NCBI RefSeq assembly: GCF_022637395.1 | Contig: NZ_CP093338.1 | Location: 124,001 to 188,000 of the forward strand | DNA length: 64,000 bases | DNA from: Shinella sp. H4-D48 | GTDB taxonomy: Bacteria > Pseudomonadota > Alphaproteobacteria > Rhizobiales > Rhizobiaceae | Reading direction: 5' to 3' | Shown here: positions 22,478-28,282 of the stretch, one piece after another | How the letters are laid out: the number at the start of each line of letters is the position of its first letter | How positions within the stretch are numbered: the first letter of the stretch is position 1 | The notes under the pieces: generated by a model | Seen by the model: only the letters and a program-made list of their open reading frames with translations | Database searches by the model: none | What the model was told of the DNA's origin: nothing | Translations under genes and position numbers: made by a program

Positions 22478-23410
22478 TCAGGTCCAGGCGTAACGAACAA
22501 TGTGGAAGAAAACGGGAGCGGCAAAGACCAGGCTGTCGGCACGGTCGAGCATTCCGCCATGGCCTTCGATCATGTGGCCCCAGTCCTTCACCCCGCGATC
22601 GCGCTTGATGGCAGAGGCGACGAGGCCGCCGAAGAAGCCCATAATGCAGGCGAGCGCCGCCAAAACCCCGGCTTCGAGCGGCGAGAATGGCGTCAGCCAA
22701 TAAAGCCCCGCCCCCATCAGCGATGCGCTGGCGATGCCGCCGATGAGGCCTTCCCAGGTCTTGGATGGAGAAATGGCGGGCGCCACCTTGTGCCGGCCGA
22801 ACAGCTTGCCGAAGATATATTGCAGCACATCGCTGCCCTGCACGGTGGCGATCAGGAAGGCAATCAGAAGCAGTCCTCGCCCTTCATTGCCGGGAATGGG
22901 CAGCGTCACGAGCGCCGGCACATGGCTCAGGCAATAGACCGAAAGCATGATACCCCATTGCTGCTCGCTAACCCGCTCAAGAAAGCGGGAGGTATCGCCG
23001 CGCAGCGCCGTCAGCGCCGGCATGGCGAGAAAGCAGTAGACGGGAATGAAGATCGAGTAGAGCCCGTACCAGTCGATCCAGATCAGATAGTATTGTACCG
23101 GAATGACGATCAGGAACATGCCAAGCAGCGTCCAACGGTCTGCGCGGCGGGTATTGGTGAGCGTCACATATTCCCGCAGCGCCGCGAATGACACGAAGGC
23201 GAACAGCAGGATCACGCCGCCTTTGCCGAAGACGAAGGCCACCGAAATGCCCGTAACCATGATCCACCACGCCTTGATGCGGGCGTTCAGGTTGTCGAGC
23301 GTGGAAGGCAAAGGCTTGGGACTGCGCCAGGAGAGGATGGCCGCGACAAGGCTCGCCACCGACAGCACCGCGACAAGCCCGAGAAAAAGACAAGTGGTAT
23401 CGTCGCTCAT
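22478..23410 (-). CDS. Phosphatidate cytidylyltransferase-like protein (CdsA family; YnbB-like)
   Basis: 310 residues, about eight hydrophobic segments. The CDP-diglyceride synthase signature is intact near the C-terminus (SAIKRDRGVKDWGHMIEGHG followed by GMLDRAD). The reaction is CTP plus phosphatidic acid to CDP-diacylglycerol at the inner membrane. Its start overlaps the acyltransferase stop (ATGA). Its neighbours match the E. coli ynb set, so this is probably the YnbB counterpart rather than the housekeeping CdsA. Confidence 0.87.
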   Translation of the reverse strand: MSDDTTCLFLGLVAVLSVASLVAAILSWRSPKPLPSTLDNLNARIKAWWIMVTGISVAFVFGKGGVILLFAFVSFAALREYVTLTNTRRADRWTLLGMFLIVIPVQYYLIWIDWYGLYSIFIPVYCFLAMPALTALRGDTSRFLERVSEQQWGIMLSVYCLSHVPALVTLPIPGNEGRGLLLIAFLIATVQGSDVLQYIFGKLFGRHKVAPAISPSKTWEGLIGGIASASLMGAGLYWLTPFSPLEAGVLAALACIMGFFGGLVASAIKRDRGVKDWGHMIEGHGGMLDRADSLVFAAPVFFHIVRYAWT

Positions 23411-24057
23411 TGCGGGGTTCCATCCTTTCGCGGCGCAAGCGCGAGAAGCGCCACTCGGGCGCGGTCAAGAAAGACTTTGCGGTCCTCGCCATTTTCCAGC
23501 TTAAGCGGCGCGCCGAACACGACGCGGCAGAGCAGCGGGATGGGCAGGAACGCTCCCTTCGGCAGTACACGGGACATGTTCTCGATCCAGCACGGCACGA
23601 GTTCCACCTCGGGACGTGCGGCCGCGAGATTGTAGAGGCCAGAGCGGAAGCGCAGCAGCGGCTCCTCCGTCATGTTGCGCGTGCCTTCTGGAAAGAAGAT
23701 CAGGCTCTCGCCCGCATCGAGTGCCGCGAGCATCACCTCCATAGGATCCACTCGGCGCTCGACCCAGTTGCGTTCTACCAGCACGGTGCGCAGCAGCCTG
23801 CCGGCGATGAAACGCCTGACGGGACCGGCATTCCAGTAATCCGCGCCGGCGACCGCCGCTGTGCGACCACGCTCGGCCAGATGAAGGCAGGTGCAAACCA
23901 GAATGAAATCGCCGTGGCTGGCGTGATTGGCGAAGTAGATGCGCAGCGGCCCGTTCGGCGACGTGCCCGCCCAGATCGGGCGCACACCGGTCACGGCGCG
24001 GGCGAGCACGGCGAGCACAGCGGCTGACGCTTTCTGGAGGAGGCTCGCCCCGCTCAT
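23407..24057 (-). CDS. 1-acyl-sn-glycerol-3-phosphate acyltransferase-family protein (PlsC-like)
   Basis: 216 residues from the ATG at 24057, which overlaps the upstream stop as ATGA; a 32-residue in-frame extension is unlikely. Acyltransferase motifs are present: NHASHGD (catalytic His/Asp) and FFPEGTRN. It would transfer an acyl chain to lysophosphatidic acid or a related acceptor at the membrane. Position between the CdsA-like gene and a small membrane protein gene suggests it supplies the cluster's lipid substrate. E. coli ynbABCD has no such gene. Confidence 0.86.
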   Translation of the reverse strand: MSGASLLQKASAAVLAVLARAVTGVRPIWAGTSPNGPLRIYFANHASHGDFILVCTCLHLAERGRTAAVAGADYWNAGPVRRFIAGRLLRTVLVERNWVERRVDPMEVMLAALDAGESLIFFPEGTRNMTEEPLLRFRSGLYNLAAARPEVELVPCWIENMSRVLPKGAFLPIPLLCRVVFGAPLKLENGEDRKVFLDRARVALLALAPRKDGTPQ

Positions 24058-24491
24058 GCCCCGCCCCCCTCGATACCGTCGAGCAGCAGGATGGCAAAAA
24101 GGGAAAGCGCGAAGGCCAGAAGAATGCGCTGCATCCAGACCAGCCGCCGGCATCCCGCAAGTCTGGTGGCAAGGGGAGCGGGCTGGCCGTTGCGCTTGCG
24201 AAGGCCCATGCGCTCCAGTACGTCGTCGATGGCCGATAGCGCGGCATCTTCCCTCTTATGGGAGGCAGCCAGCCTGAATAGCCCGGCATCGAACAGAAGG
24301 TGAGCCGACAGCCCGAGCGGCGCGAGACAGAAGGCGAGCAACAGCCACCAGCCGAGCGGCGCGGTAAAACCATGGGCGCCGGCGGTCGGCGGAGCGACCG
24401 CGAGGATCAGCACCGCAAGCGCTCCGCCCGCAAGTCCGTTGCGCCTGAAGCTCAGCGCTGCTTTCGTCATACGCATCCGCCAGTCCGTCAT
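24054..24491 (-). CDS. Small membrane protein of unknown function (145 residues)
   Basis: Three hydrophobic stretches: about residues 19-38, 47-66 and 120-137. The middle hydrophilic part contains KREDAALSAIDDVLERMGLRKR. No known domain is recognised. Both ends overlap neighbouring genes as ATGA, so it is surely expressed with the lipid cluster. A role in holding or positioning the enzymes of the cluster is possible but unsupported. Confidence 0.75.
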   Translation of the reverse strand: MTDWRMRMTKAALSFRRNGLAGGALAVLILAVAPPTAGAHGFTAPLGWWLLLAFCLAPLGLSAHLLFDAGLFRLAASHKREDAALSAIDDVLERMGLRKRNGQPAPLATRLAGCRRLVWMQRILLAFALSLFAILLLDGIEGGGA

Positions 24492-25822
24492 CGCGCTGCC
24501 TCATCGATCACAGCATAGGCCTCGACCGGCAGATGAACCGGCCGGCCGGCGGCCCTGATCTGCGCCACCGCAATAGCCGCACTTGCCGCATACCCCATGC
24601 GAACCAGAACGCAGGCAGCAACCACCGCACTGCGCTGGAAACCCAGCGCGCAGCAGATGAGGACGGGGCCGTGACGGCGGGCCTCCTCCACGGAAAGCGT
24701 GGCTTCACGGATGCGGCCGGCAGACAACGACAGGAGATCGAGGGACGGGAATGCGCGCCAGGCAAGCCCCGGCACCACGAGACCCGGCAGCTCTGCCGTC
24801 ATGTCGATCACCGTCGCGATCGTCGAAAGCGTCTTTCGTTCGGGAAACCGCCCGAGCAGCACACCATCACCGATTTTCACCGTCGCCGGAAGCCGGCGCG
24901 TCCACCAGAGCATGTTGAGCCACGCGCCGAACCGGTAAGGCATGAGCAGCCAGCGGCTCGCCAGGCTGACACGGCCGTCGGTAGCCTTCTGGAAAACCGC
25001 CTCGCCCGCCCCCGCATAACCGAGAGCCACGATGGCAAGCGCCAGCGCCGGCCAGAGCAACAACAGCCCGGCGCCGTAACTGTGCGTCGTGAGGATCGCC
25101 AGAATGAGCAGGATCGCCGCTGCGGCTGCGTAGAAGGTGGCAAGCCGCCGTGGCTTTGCCTCCGCCGTCCATCGGACGCCGGAAAGCGGCGACTTTCCTC
25201 TCGAAGGAAAAAGCCAGAGCGCAAAAAGCCCGAGAAGTGCGCCGGCTGGAATGTCCAAAACATGATGCTGCCATGTCGTCAGCACGGAGATTCCGATTAG
25301 AGCGCTCCAGAGATGCCAGATCATTCTGACTGCGCCGGCAAAGCGACCGCGCCAGTGATCCCAGATGATCACCAGAAGTGCAATATGCAGCGACGGCGCC
25401 TGGTTGAACGGCTTATCGAAACCACCGAGCACATCGAACATGAAACCCGGCAGCCCCTCTGTCGGCGGTCGCACAAAGATGGCCTGGAGGGGAAACGCGA
25501 CGAAACAGGCGATGGCTACAACCTGTGCCGTCAGATAGCGCCGCGCCAGCCGGCCGACTGCGTCCGGCGTGGCATTGACGAAGAGCGAGAGGGCATAGAA
25601 GACATTGATCGACCAGTAGGGCACGATCGTCCAGGCGAGGAAAGGGATGTGACGTTCCCAGCCGAAGGCGATGTTCGGCACACCGGATCGCAGCGAGGCC
25701 AGCCAGTTCGCCGTGCCGTAGGTCAGGTAGAAGAATGGCGCCAGGAAAAGCAGCCACAGTGCCGCCGCGCGCAACACTGCGCGGCGCTGGCTCCCGGGCA
25801 TGGATGCGACCCCCTCCCCCAT
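24488..25822 (-). CDS. Fused PAP2 phosphatase / dual-specificity phosphatase membrane protein (YnbD-like)
   Basis: 444 residues. The N-terminal half is a multi-spanning PAP2 (inositolphosphotransferase-type) domain with VRPPTEGLPGF, APSLH and WQHHVLDIPAG. Two or three more membrane segments follow. The C-terminal 120 residues are a cysteine phosphatase with C391-ALGFQ-R397, the C-x5-R active-site loop. E. coli YnbD has the same build. It may dephosphorylate a lipid phosphate on one face and a second substrate on the other; both activities are predicted from motifs only. Confidence 0.82.
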   Translation of the reverse strand: MGEGVASMPGSQRRAVLRAAALWLLFLAPFFYLTYGTANWLASLRSGVPNIAFGWERHIPFLAWTIVPYWSINVFYALSLFVNATPDAVGRLARRYLTAQVVAIACFVAFPLQAIFVRPPTEGLPGFMFDVLGGFDKPFNQAPSLHIALLVIIWDHWRGRFAGAVRMIWHLWSALIGISVLTTWQHHVLDIPAGALLGLFALWLFPSRGKSPLSGVRWTAEAKPRRLATFYAAAAAILLILAILTTHSYGAGLLLLWPALALAIVALGYAGAGEAVFQKATDGRVSLASRWLLMPYRFGAWLNMLWWTRRLPATVKIGDGVLLGRFPERKTLSTIATVIDMTAELPGLVVPGLAWRAFPSLDLLSLSAGRIREATLSVEEARRHGPVLICCALGFQRSAVVAACVLVRMGYAASAAIAVAQIRAAGRPVHLPVEAYAVIDEAAR

Positions 25823-25829
25823 TATGGCC

Positions 25830-27566
25830 TCAGACGCGTTCGGCCAGTGAGACGGTGAAGATGCCCCACTTATCGATGCGCTGCTCGATCTTGCGGAAGC
25901 CCGCCGCGGCCACGAGTTGGTCCATCTCCTGCTGCGTGCGACGGCGCATGATCCAGGCTTCGCCGCCGCGATGGGAGGTCAGCGCCCGTGCGATCATCTC
26001 GAGCTGCGGATGCCAGGGTTGGCCGGTATAGACGAGCAGCGATCCCGGCTCGAGCGCTCGGCCCAAGCCGGCAAGCGAGGCCTCGACCATGGCATTGTCC
26101 GGGAAGAGTTCGTAGAGGCCGGAAACGATGGCAAGCGTCGGCTTCGGCTCGATGGACGCAAGGCCTTGCGTATCGAAGGCATCCGCCCGATGGAATGCCG
26201 CGCTGTCTCCAAGGCCCCGCGCCGCGATCAGCGCCGTGCCTTTTTCTACGTTGATCGGCGAATAATCCTGCAAGCGGATGCTTTCCGGCTTCACCTCGGA
26301 TGCGGCGACGGCGTCGAGCAAATACCGTCCATGGCCAGCGGCGATGTCGAGAACGCGCGCCGGCTTTCCTTCGGCATCGAGGCGTTTGAGCGCCTTGCCG
26401 ATCAACTCCTCCAGATGCACCTTTCTCTGGCGGATACCGCGCCAGCCGATGGCATCGAGGAACTGCCGGTCGATCAGCCGTCCGCCGGGGCCAAGCCCGC
26501 GCGCCTCGTCCTCGTAGACGTAATCGAGCGTGGAACCGGAATCGAAGCCCGTGCGGCTTCCGGTGGCAAGCCCCTTGGAGAACAAGCCGCCAAGGCGGAT
26601 CGAGGCGCGTGTGAGCGCCCAGTAAAGGCCGCGCGGCGAAAGCAGCGGCAGGGGCGTCGCCAGCCGGTCGGCTTCGTCACGGGTGTAGCCGGACAGGTGG
26701 GCGCTCCGCACATCGGCCACGGCGGGTGGTTCGGCAAAGCGGGCGAGGAGGAAGGTGCGCACCTTCTCCAGCGCCTTGGCCCGATCCCGCTCGCCCAATG
26801 TGTCATGATAGAAACCGGGCAGCACGTGGCGTTGCTTGATCGTCGCACCAAGGTTTTCGAAGAAGCGATGCTGCGGCGCGTGGCGCACGACGAAGTCGCT
26901 GCCCGAGATCAGGATTTGCGTCGGCACCGTAATGGCGCGGGCATCCGCCACCACACGGTCGGCAGCCTCATAAAGCTCCAGCAGGATGTTGGACGCGATA
27001 GGGCGCGTGATCAACGGGTCGGCCTCGAACGAGGCGATGCGCGCGCGGTCATGGGTCAGGAAGCGCGCCTTGACGTAGGAATTGACAAAGAAGGTACCCT
27101 TCAGCTTCTGCCAGAGCGCAATGCCCTCCTTCGCGAAGGGAACGTAGAGCTTGACGTCGAAGGCCGGCGCGGCCAGCACGAGCGCACGGATATCAGGCGC
27201 ATAGTCATGCACCCAGGTCGCAGCCAGCACGGCCCCGACGCTCTGGGCGACGACGGCGATATCGCCGATTGCAAAACCGCCGGTCTCCATAATGTGCCGG
27301 ACGAAGCAATCGAGGTCGCGCACCGAATGGGCAAACGACGGCGAAAAGCCGCGTTCGCCGGGCGAGCGGCCGTGGCCGCGTGCATCCCAGGCGTAAAAGG
27401 CGAAATCGTCCAGGCCCAGTTCATCGACAACATGCGCCACCCGGCCACCATGTTCGTGGCCGCGGTGCAGAAGCACGATGGCTCCCTTCGGCGTGCCGGA
27501 GCGGGCCGGCCAGTAACGGTAGAAAAGCTCGACCCCGTCGTGGCTGGTAAACGTCGATTCGATCAT
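25830..27566 (-). CDS. Fused alpha/beta-hydrolase and methyltransferase (YnbC-like)
   Basis: 578 residues from the ATG at 27566 (GAGGACAGG ribosome site; an upstream in-frame ATG at 27593 is less likely). Residues 1 to about 290 are a monoacylglycerol-lipase-like hydrolase (WDARGHGRSPGERG, nucleophile loop AQSVGA, GFYHDTLGE for the His). The second half is a SAM-dependent methyltransferase (VLDIAAGHGRYLLD). E. coli YnbC has the same length and fusion. The nucleophile elbow has Ala in place of the first Gly of G-x-S-x-G. Start of the leftward lipid operon. Confidence 0.82.
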   Translation of the reverse strand: MIESTFTSHDGVELFYRYWPARSGTPKGAIVLLHRGHEHGGRVAHVVDELGLDDFAFYAWDARGHGRSPGERGFSPSFAHSVRDLDCFVRHIMETGGFAIGDIAVVAQSVGAVLAATWVHDYAPDIRALVLAAPAFDVKLYVPFAKEGIALWQKLKGTFFVNSYVKARFLTHDRARIASFEADPLITRPIASNILLELYEAADRVVADARAITVPTQILISGSDFVVRHAPQHRFFENLGATIKQRHVLPGFYHDTLGERDRAKALEKVRTFLLARFAEPPAVADVRSAHLSGYTRDEADRLATPLPLLSPRGLYWALTRASIRLGGLFSKGLATGSRTGFDSGSTLDYVYEDEARGLGPGGRLIDRQFLDAIGWRGIRQRKVHLEELIGKALKRLDAEGKPARVLDIAAGHGRYLLDAVAASEVKPESIRLQDYSPINVEKGTALIAARGLGDSAAFHRADAFDTQGLASIEPKPTLAIVSGLYELFPDNAMVEASLAGLGRALEPGSLLVYTGQPWHPQLEMIARALTSHRGGEAWIMRRRTQQEMDQLVAAAGFRKIEQRIDKWGIFTVSLAERV

Positions 27567-27685
27567 GCCTGTCCTCGTTTCGCGTATGAACACACATCCT
27601 ATACGGATGAGACCGCCTGTTTGCAGTTGATTTCATACCGCCGCACCTGCATTTGTTGAATCGAGCGAAGCGGATTCAAGCCCTT

Positions 27686-28282
27686 ATGTCGATCTATAAA
27701 CTGAAATCGTCCTTCCAGAACCTGCTGCGGCCACTGGTCGGGCGCCTCGCCGAACGGGGCGTCACCGCCAATCAGGTCACGCTTTTCGCGGCCATCGTCT
27801 CGGTCGGAATCGGTGCACTTCTCTTGGCCAATCCCCAACCCGCGCTCTTCGCGCTGGTGCCGCTCTGGATGTTCCTACGCATGGCGCTGAACGCCGTTGA
27901 CGGCATGCTGGCGCGCGAGCACGACCAGAAGAGCGCGCTCGGCGGCTATCTCAACGAGATCACCGACGTCGTTTCCGACGCCGCGCTTTACCTGCCCTTT
28001 GCGCTGGTCGCACCCTTCTCGCTGCCGTGGCTGACGGCCATCGTGTTCCTGGCGACGCTCACGGAATTCACCGGCGTTCTGGGCGTCGCGCACGGCAAGG
28101 GCCGCAGCTACGAGGGACCGATGGGCAAGAGCGACAGGGCGCTGCTTTTCGGCGCGCTCGGCGCGCTTGTGGCCGGTTTCGGCACCCTGCCGGACTGGAC
28201 ATGGCATATCCAGCCCATGGCCTGCGTCCTGCTCGTCTGGACGGTCGTCAACCGCGTGCGGGCCGGCCTCGCCCCGTCCTAG
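27686..28282 (+). CDS. CDP-alcohol phosphatidyltransferase-family protein (YnbA-like)
   Basis: 198 residues from the ATG at 27686, matching the length of E. coli YnbA; a TTG 33 bases upstream is the alternative. Five or six membrane segments. The CDP-alcohol phosphotransferase motif reads N-AVDGMLAR, eight residues, G-YLNEITDVVSD: the first Asp of D-x2-D-G-x2-A-R is Asn, the other acidic positions are kept. It would join CDP-diacylglycerol to an alcohol. It is divergent from the rest of the lipid operon and ends in a CTAG shared with the rarA stop. Confidence 0.83.
   Translation: MSIYKLKSSFQNLLRPLVGRLAERGVTANQVTLFAAIVSVGIGALLLANPQPALFALVPLWMFLRMALNAVDGMLAREHDQKSALGGYLNEITDVVSDAALYLPFALVAPFSLPWLTAIVFLATLTEFTGVLGVAHGKGRSYEGPMGKSDRALLFGALGALVAGFGTLPDWTWHIQPMACVLLVWTVVNRVRAGLAPS

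Follow-up and report, generated by a model that had tools for sequence, protein, structure and literature searches.

A conserved ynb-type lipid locus of Shinella sp. H4-D48 with an altered metal-site signature in YnbA

We analyzed a 64,000-nucleotide stretch of DNA from Shinella sp. H4-D48 (NZ_CP093338.1, positions 124,001 to 188,000; hereafter, the window), in which positions 22478-28282 are occupied by six genes, encoding YnbB/CdsA, PlsC, a small membrane protein (S), YnbD, and YnbC on the minus strand, and a divergent YnbA on the plus strand. The region is a ynb-type lipid locus with the four E. coli components, PlsC, and the small membrane protein. Judged from the alignments, what appears to be new here is the site of YnbA: Asn at the first and third aspartate positions of the class signature (D1 and D3) and Arg four residues before D1 (position -4) are common to YnbA and to its relatives in PlsC-YnbB-YnbA trios. 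Proteins with Asn at both positions are called N/N below, and those with Asp at both are called D/D. The comparison points to a rebuilt active site marked by a signature, to a core trio, and to phosphatase and methyltransferase modules that are optional. An active enzyme with this site would extend what is allowed in the catalysis of a central family of phospholipid enzymes; a dead one would mean that ynb is something other than a synthesis path.

Gene content and distribution of the locus

The window lies on contig 2 (the second replicon) of a 4.77-Mb, three-contig genome, and the locus was 90-91% identical over its full length to loci on large plasmids of Shinella oryzae and S. sumterensis. 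Its features are as follows.

22478..23410, minus strand: YnbB-type CdsA paralogue (CTP:phosphatidate cytidylyltransferase), 310 amino acids (aa), PF01148, 42% identical to E. coli YnbB
23407..23410, minus strand: ATGA stop/start overlap of PlsC and YnbB, read directly
23407..24057, minus strand: PlsC-like lysophospholipid acyltransferase, 216 aa, PF01553, annotated so in Shinella locus L006
24054..24057, minus strand: ATGA stop/start overlap of S and PlsC, read directly
24054..24491, minus strand: small membrane protein S, 145 aa, an open reading frame (ORF) that follows YnbD in related loci
24488..24491, minus strand: ATGA stop/start overlap of YnbD and S, read directly
24488..25822, minus strand: YnbD-type PAP2-like and dual-specificity-phosphatase (DSP) protein, 444 aa
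25830..27566, minus strand: YnbC-type alpha/beta hydrolase and Methyltransf_20 fusion, 578 aa, PF12146 and PF12147
27567..27685, no strand: divergent YnbC/YnbA intergenic region, presumed promoter region, read from the sequence
27686..28282, plus strand: YnbA-type CDP-alcohol phosphotransferase with altered signature, 198 aa

An earlier sequence-only reading had described all four E. coli ynb components joined by a PlsC-like acyltransferase and a small membrane protein, with ATGA overlaps linking four genes, and each of these points was borne out. The MG1655 YnbA, YnbB, YnbC, and YnbD proteins were 46, 42, 56, and 36% identical to the window proteins over 196, 300, 576, and 421 aa, respectively (BLASTP), and the three overlaps link the genes for YnbD, S, PlsC, and YnbB. 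The gap between YnbC and YnbD is 7 bp; YnbA is encoded on the other strand, with 119 bp between it and the YnbC start (27566). The start of YnbC is uncertain, with an alternative GTG at 27593, as are those of YnbD and of PlsC, for which 24057 was set by homology to L006 and the longest ORF reaches 24153.

YnbB matched PF01148 (CTP_transf_1) with 232 bits over model positions 2-263 of 264, a full-length domain, and fell below the cut-off of the NCBIfam CdsA equivalog (NF008635, 108.8 of 385 bits, residues 164-304 only). A further CdsA-family gene, presumably the housekeeping one, was found at C1:1936200 of the same genome. HX4D and EGTR are the motifs of PlsC-type acyltransferases, and PlsC of the window (PF01553, Acyltransferase, 58 bits in Pfam) has both in the conserved forms NHxSHxD and FPEGTR. 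S gave no match in the Pfam and NCBIfam searches. Among the 83 loci searched for it, the window and L006 among them, an S-like ORF followed YnbD in 82, with a 4-base overlap in 51 of the 82.

YnbC had been described as a hydrolase/methyltransferase fusion, and both domains were found: PF12146 (Hydrolase_4, 230 bits) and PF12147 (Methyltransf_20, 490 bits, positions 1-309 of 309). The nearest PDB sequences to the hydrolase part were monoacylglycerol lipases, and solved structures were only weakly related in sequence to the C-terminal Methyltransf_20 half (best E 0.002). For YnbD, described as a PAP2/dual-specificity phosphatase fusion, the second half of the claim held by predicted structure. 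The predicted structure of the window protein matched DSP structures over residues 306-444, and a C(X)5R loop was present. The structural matches listed were taken up by this DSP half, which is no sign that PAP2 relatives are absent. This half resembled PTPMT1 as well as other DSPs. The Pfam search reported no DSP domain in the window protein and gave 96.6 bits for DSPc in E. coli YnbD. The PAP2_3 match was below threshold (22.9 bits; Pfam cut-off, 27). The C3 motif of PAP2 phosphatases is SRx5Hx3D; YnbD proteins had S-(V/I/T)-x5-H-x3-D, with Arg in 0 of 106 readable rows. The residue preceding the catalytic Cys was Cys in 96 YnbD rows and His in one.

Conservation of the gene set was assessed by a scan of species genomes with the YnbC alignment. 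At least 502 relatives were found, of which 80 loci were kept, and 26 were added from other Pseudomonadota genomes. These 106 loci include three pairs identical in YnbC, leaving 103 distinct other loci. The search for conserved gene sets that had been proposed found YnbA, YnbC, YnbD, PlsC, and YnbB together in 81 of the 103; 14 had YnbA, YnbC, and YnbD only, and 8 had other subsets, some of them on short contigs. The usual order was A-C-D-S-P-B. YnbA shared the strand of YnbC in 72 loci; in another 28, as in the window, the two genes lay on opposite strands. The gene set is not a chance arrangement: it recurred in Acidobacteria metagenome-assembled genomes and in named members of the Alpha- and Betaproteobacteria, and, in reduced form, in E. 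coli. Since 81 of the 103 loci carry the five genes, the island of the window, which had been called expanded, is not special; the E. coli ynb locus is the reduced form, and the expansion exists only relative to it. Within E. coli, the ynb region was matched in 4579 of 5426 complete genomes, with at least 80% of the region in 4242; the 847 genomes without a match at megablast sensitivity and the 337 with less than 80% show that it is often lost or reduced. A 385-kb E. coli plasmid record (NZ_CP141085.1) has a gene annotated ynbB, and a record named Roseateles, possibly misnamed (NZ_CP084753.1), has a locus 79% identical to that of the window.

YnbC (PF12147) was present in 27 of 398 Pseudomonadota genomes and full-length YnbB (E below 1e-80) in 67 of 396 (68 matches; the 67 genomes were counted by eye). 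YnbB was found in all 27 genomes with YnbC, on another contig in three (hypergeometric 8e-24). In Acidobacteriota, YnbB was found in 1 of 149 genomes at E 1e-60 by a search that is insensitive there and missed G435, the centre genome, in which locus L086 carries a YnbB match. Distance correlations among 37 thinned loci were 0.58-0.83 for YnbB, YnbC, YnbD, PlsC, and S, and 0.20-0.49 for YnbA against the others; a permutation null made for the YnbA-YnbC pair only (500 permutations) reached at most 0.23. The distances of the first five agree with a shared history and those of YnbA less so, which may reflect its inversion or short length. When 616 flanking ORFs from 73 loci (44 from the YnbB survey and 29 chosen YnbC loci) were clustered, only generic families recurred besides S (ABC ATPase, 9 loci).

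YnbB also occurred without a full linked YnbC, and 40 of 44 such regions were fetched (all except G388, G389, G207, and G246), including L163 with a weak YnbC-profile match. PlsC, YnbB, and a YnbA-type protein formed a trio in 28 of the 40, PlsC and YnbB occurred in 11, and YnbB was alone in one. The PlsC-YnbB regions L170-L175, L177, L185, L186, L188, and L189 had no CDP-alcohol transferase motif nearby. The YnbA profile was also run against fifteen whole genomes, of which 12 belong to the group with no transferase next to YnbB, and 11 of the fifteen gave no match; of the other four, G379 and G296 carry YnbA within a ynb island at another site, G321 an N/N match interrupted by a stop, and G208 a canonical D/D protein. 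The island of G043 is split, with A-C-D (L140) and a trio-type A-P-B (L167) on different contigs, so that two N/N YnbA types coexist; that of G253 is split likewise (L139 and L166), and its second YnbA is a fragment. On a plasmid of the cyanobacterium Pseudanabaena (L151:5230-8385), an A-B-P trio precedes a gene for an unfused Methyltransf_20 protein, with nif genes alongside. Acylation and CDP activation are thus the most constant part, with head-group transfer usual. Methylation, hydrolysis, and dephosphorylation are optional add-on modules, because trios without YnbC or YnbD are common and PlsC-YnbB-only regions also occur.

The metal site of YnbA

YnbA was assigned to the class I CDP-alcohol phosphotransferases by its match to PF01066 (CDP-OH_P_transf, 37 bits) and its predicted class I fold. 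The published definition of the class is the signature DxxDGxxAR...GxxxDxxxD, with two metal ions bound by its aspartates (PMC8633023, PMC4634129, PMC6506517). The complete signature was absent from the window protein, in which D1 and D3 are Asn; the description of YnbA as a CDP-alcohol phosphotransferase therefore stands for family and fold and fails for two of the four signature aspartates. The codons concerned, read from the sequence, are as follows.

27878..27880, plus strand: YnbA Arg65, family-specific, four residues before D1; Arg in 141/141 N/N rows and 0/67 D/D rows
27890..27892, plus strand: YnbA Asn69, signature position D1; Asp in 67/67 D/D controls
27953..27955, plus strand: YnbA Asn90, signature position D3; Asn in 141/141 N/N rows versus Asp in 67/67 D/D rows

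The 141 N/N rows were drawn from the YnbA set, the trio-type proteins, and the proteins found blind; 138 of the sequences are distinct, and 90 remain when they are thinned at 90% identity. The rows of the first two sets were picked by Asn at D1, with D3 left free. For the controls, 41 Alphaproteobacteria were scanned with PF01066 (135 matches), and 72 loci were read (three own, 29 best, and 40 weaker matches); YnbA of the window and an L182 match that had earlier been identified as N/N were not among them. The 72 gave 67 D/D proteins, all distinct and unchanged by the same thinning, three N/N proteins, and two unreadable ones. The three N/N proteins found blind all adjoined YnbB; two also adjoined PlsC, and the third was at a contig end. 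Of the 110 unselected YnbA-profile rows, 109 had Asn at D1 and 109 had it at D3; the exception at both positions was the broken L083, with a gap at D1 and Q at D3. In the trio set, the motif was readable in 27 of 28 transferases, all N/N (L166 is a fragment).

Five features were common to all N/N rows: an Arg at -4, an Asn at each of D1 and D3, an acidic residue (Glu or Asp) following D3, and an Asp at D4+4. They give the pattern R-x3-N-x2-DG ... G-x3-N-[ED]-x2-D-x3-D; D2, D4, both Gly, the Ala, and Arg151 were also invariant. The first four features were seen in 0 of 67 controls and Asp at D4+4 in one. The latter is not special to N/N rows because PIP-synthase-type structures have it too. Two subtypes were distinguished: the ynb type retains the signature AR and has a hydrophobic residue after D4 (117/117; Val95 in the window), and the trio type has V/I/L/M for the signature Arg (24/24) and Arg after D4 (24/24). 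In a tree of 116 rows including the motif columns, the N/N proteins formed one clade with one change (support, 92). In a 120-row tree without the D1 and D3 columns, each N/N clade stayed intact and the split from D/D took two changes, and a single origin is not shown once these columns are removed. The altered signature was unmentioned in the open-licence papers searched.

The predicted fold of YnbA was nearest to phosphatidylinositol phosphate (PIP) synthase, and the nearest NCBIfam models were archaetidylinositol phosphate and PIP synthases, with scores below both cut-offs (archin_ph_syn, 67.8 of 180 bits; PIPSynth, 47.7 of 170 bits). YnbA R151 and R190 align with Mt R155 and R195, for which a function in binding the acceptor phosphate is reported (PMC4634129). 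K or R is reported always to follow D4 in PIP synthases (Mt R94), where the residue has been tested by mutation (PMC6506517); Val95 occupies this position in the window protein, and MtPIPS K135 has no aligned counterpart, lying in a segment inserted with respect to the YnbA profile. A search for the inositol-phosphate synthase MIPS (PF07994) found none in the Shinella genome, with 5 of 14 control genomes positive, E. coli not among them; this absence argues against the use of inositol phosphate and CDP-diacylglycerol (CDP-DAG) by YnbA. The EcoCyc label of YnbA as a choline phosphotransferase is reported as withdrawn (PMC3781023).

Proposed pathway and alternative explanations

We tentatively favor the reading that the locus is a dedicated phospholipid-synthesis side branch, apart from the housekeeping one, that makes a CDP-DAG-derived lipid, and we give it somewhat less than an even chance. 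PlsC would make a phosphatidate, which YnbB would convert to CDP-DAG, as reported for E. coli YnbB. YnbA, PIP-synthase-like with a rebuilt metal site, would move the phosphatidyl group onto an acceptor that, from the fold and from Arg151 and Arg190, is probably phosphate-bearing and not a MIPS-made inositol phosphate. In ynb-type islands, the domains suggest that YnbD would next strip a phosphate and that YnbC would deacylate and methylate the product or an intermediate. S may, as a guess, hold the membrane enzymes together, and the end product would be a minor lipid that the cell can do without. The data show the gene content, the overlaps, the conservation and co-occurrence of the genes, the altered signature, the linkage of the blind finds, and the predicted folds; the dedicated CDP-DAG lipid, the phosphorylated acceptor, the order of the YnbD and YnbC steps, and any role of S are what we infer. 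It is also conceivable, though unlikely, that N/N YnbA represents a separate mechanistic class, in which the invariant Arg and the two Asn replace part of the two-metal site and the enzyme works with one metal or none; in the most daring form, a phosphate would be the nucleophile and X-PP-diacylglycerol would be made from the YnbB-PlsC supply.

The sequence-only reading had proposed a complete path from acylation to methylation. This reading was supported in part: the ynb-type locus is conserved as a set, and the path is not obligatory, given the 28 trios and 11 PlsC-YnbB regions among 40; ordinary head-group transfer is not assumable with two of four signature aspartates replaced. That the product of the ynb genes is not established was confirmed, insofar as no product was assigned in the open-licence papers searched, and part of the biochemistry is already published: CDP-DAG synthesis by YnbB and its effect on MPIase (PMC6362211, PMC7018664) and the complementation tests of YnbD (PMC7413402). 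E. coli YnbB is reported to make CDP-DAG in vitro (PMC6362211, PMC7018664) and not to replace CdsA (PMC6362211). For a role in enterobacterial common antigen linked to phosphatidylglycerol (ECA-PG), ynbB was a candidate in transposon-directed insertion-site sequencing (TraDIS) and was later reported to be unnecessary (PMC8609368). Because the ynbB region has been used as a transcriptionally silent region in LB (PMC5725501), growth in LB may show no phenotype.

Several observations weigh against the favored side branch. Any mutation of a signature aspartate in MjPSS, a canonical enzyme, is reported to reduce or abolish activity, and D62N, at position D3, to give negligible or no recovery with Mg (PMC8633023); since such mutants are inactive or weakened, YnbA may not be an ordinary transferase, and the natural N/N/R site needs its own explanation. 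The hydrophobic residue after D4 in ynb-type YnbA speaks against a phosphorylated acceptor, the history of YnbA tracks those of the other genes less closely, PlsC-YnbB occurs without a nearby YnbA (11/40), no phosphatase is linked to the trios, and the order of the steps does not follow from the names of the domains.

An alternative is a non-catalytic YnbA, whose N/N/R site would do no more than bind CDP-DAG and control or scaffold YnbB-PlsC, with the output feeding another lipid. The replacement of two metal-binding aspartates in 141 of 141 rows, the loss of the signature Arg as well in the trio type, PlsC-YnbB regions without YnbA, and the MjPSS mutants (PMC8633023) would suit it. However, D2, D4, both Gly, the Ala, and Arg151 are invariant in the 141 rows, and the new invariant features (R65 and the acid at 91) fit a re-tuned site better than a dead one; we consider this explanation rather unlikely. 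An MPIase-type glycolipid precursor made or fed by the locus, in which YnbB and perhaps YnbA would join CDP-DAG and a sugar-1-phosphate to sugar-PP-DAG, is distinctly unlikely. YnbB overproduction is reported to raise MPIase, and CdsA/YnbB to give GlcNAc-PP-DAG (PMC6362211, PMC7018664), and a phosphate nucleophile would suit the fewer acidic groups and retained arginines of YnbA; nevertheless, deletion of ynbB reportedly left MPIase in E. coli without significant change (PMC6362211), and no glycosyltransferase family was matched by the island proteins in the Pfam and NCBIfam searches.

An ordinary phosphatidylinositol or phosphatidylglycerol (PG) branch, with YnbA as a PIP or phosphatidylglycerophosphate (PGP) synthase and YnbD as the phosphatase, is the least probable alternative. 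It would accord with the fold of YnbA, its nearest NCBIfam models, far under cut-off as they are, and the resemblance of the DSP half of YnbD to PTPMT1 and other DSPs. MIPS was found in neither the Shinella genome nor E. coli, however, the PIP synthase residues K135 and K/R after D4 lack counterparts in ynb-type proteins, D1 and D3 are Asn, and YnbD is reported to complement neither PGP-phosphatase nor C55-PP-phosphatase defects, with no function ascribed (PMC7413402). We also see little chance for a turnover or repair module, in which the hydrolase, phosphatase, and acyltransferase would remove damaged phospholipids or remodel them, with the CDP branch recycling phosphatidate. The hydrolase is monoacylglycerol-lipase-like, PlsC could re-acylate lyso-lipids, and a ynbC transposon insertion in HMS174(DE3) is reported to raise polyphosphate, read as stress; yet the effect was absent in Keio deletions according to the same report (PMC2435150), trios without hydrolase or phosphatase are common, and the methyltransferase would have no role.

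Comparison with known systems

YnbB shares with CdsA the CTP transferase domain and a homologous C-terminal catalytic half, whereas its N-terminal half is reported to differ (PMC7018664). YnbD has the PSxH and HxxxD motifs of PAP2 phosphatases such as PgpB and the fold and C(X)5R of DSP phosphatases such as Tk-PTP and PTPMT1; unlike in all three, the PAP2-like and DSP parts are fused. YnbA resembles PIP synthase/PgsA1 (PDB 5d92, 6h59, 6wm5) in fold, D2, D4, and the two acceptor-phosphate arginines, and differs in Asn at D1 and D3, Arg at -4, the acid after D3, the lack of an aligned K135, and, in the ynb type, the lack of K/R after D4. The Pseudanabaena plasmid region shares N/N YnbA, YnbB, PlsC, and Methyltransf_20 with the island of the window, whereas its Methyltransf_20 is unfused to a hydrolase and the region has no YnbD. 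The E. coli ynbABCD locus (b1408-b1411) shares all four proteins (36-56% identity) and the same fusions with the window but has the order A-B-C-D on one strand, with no PlsC or S in the locus.

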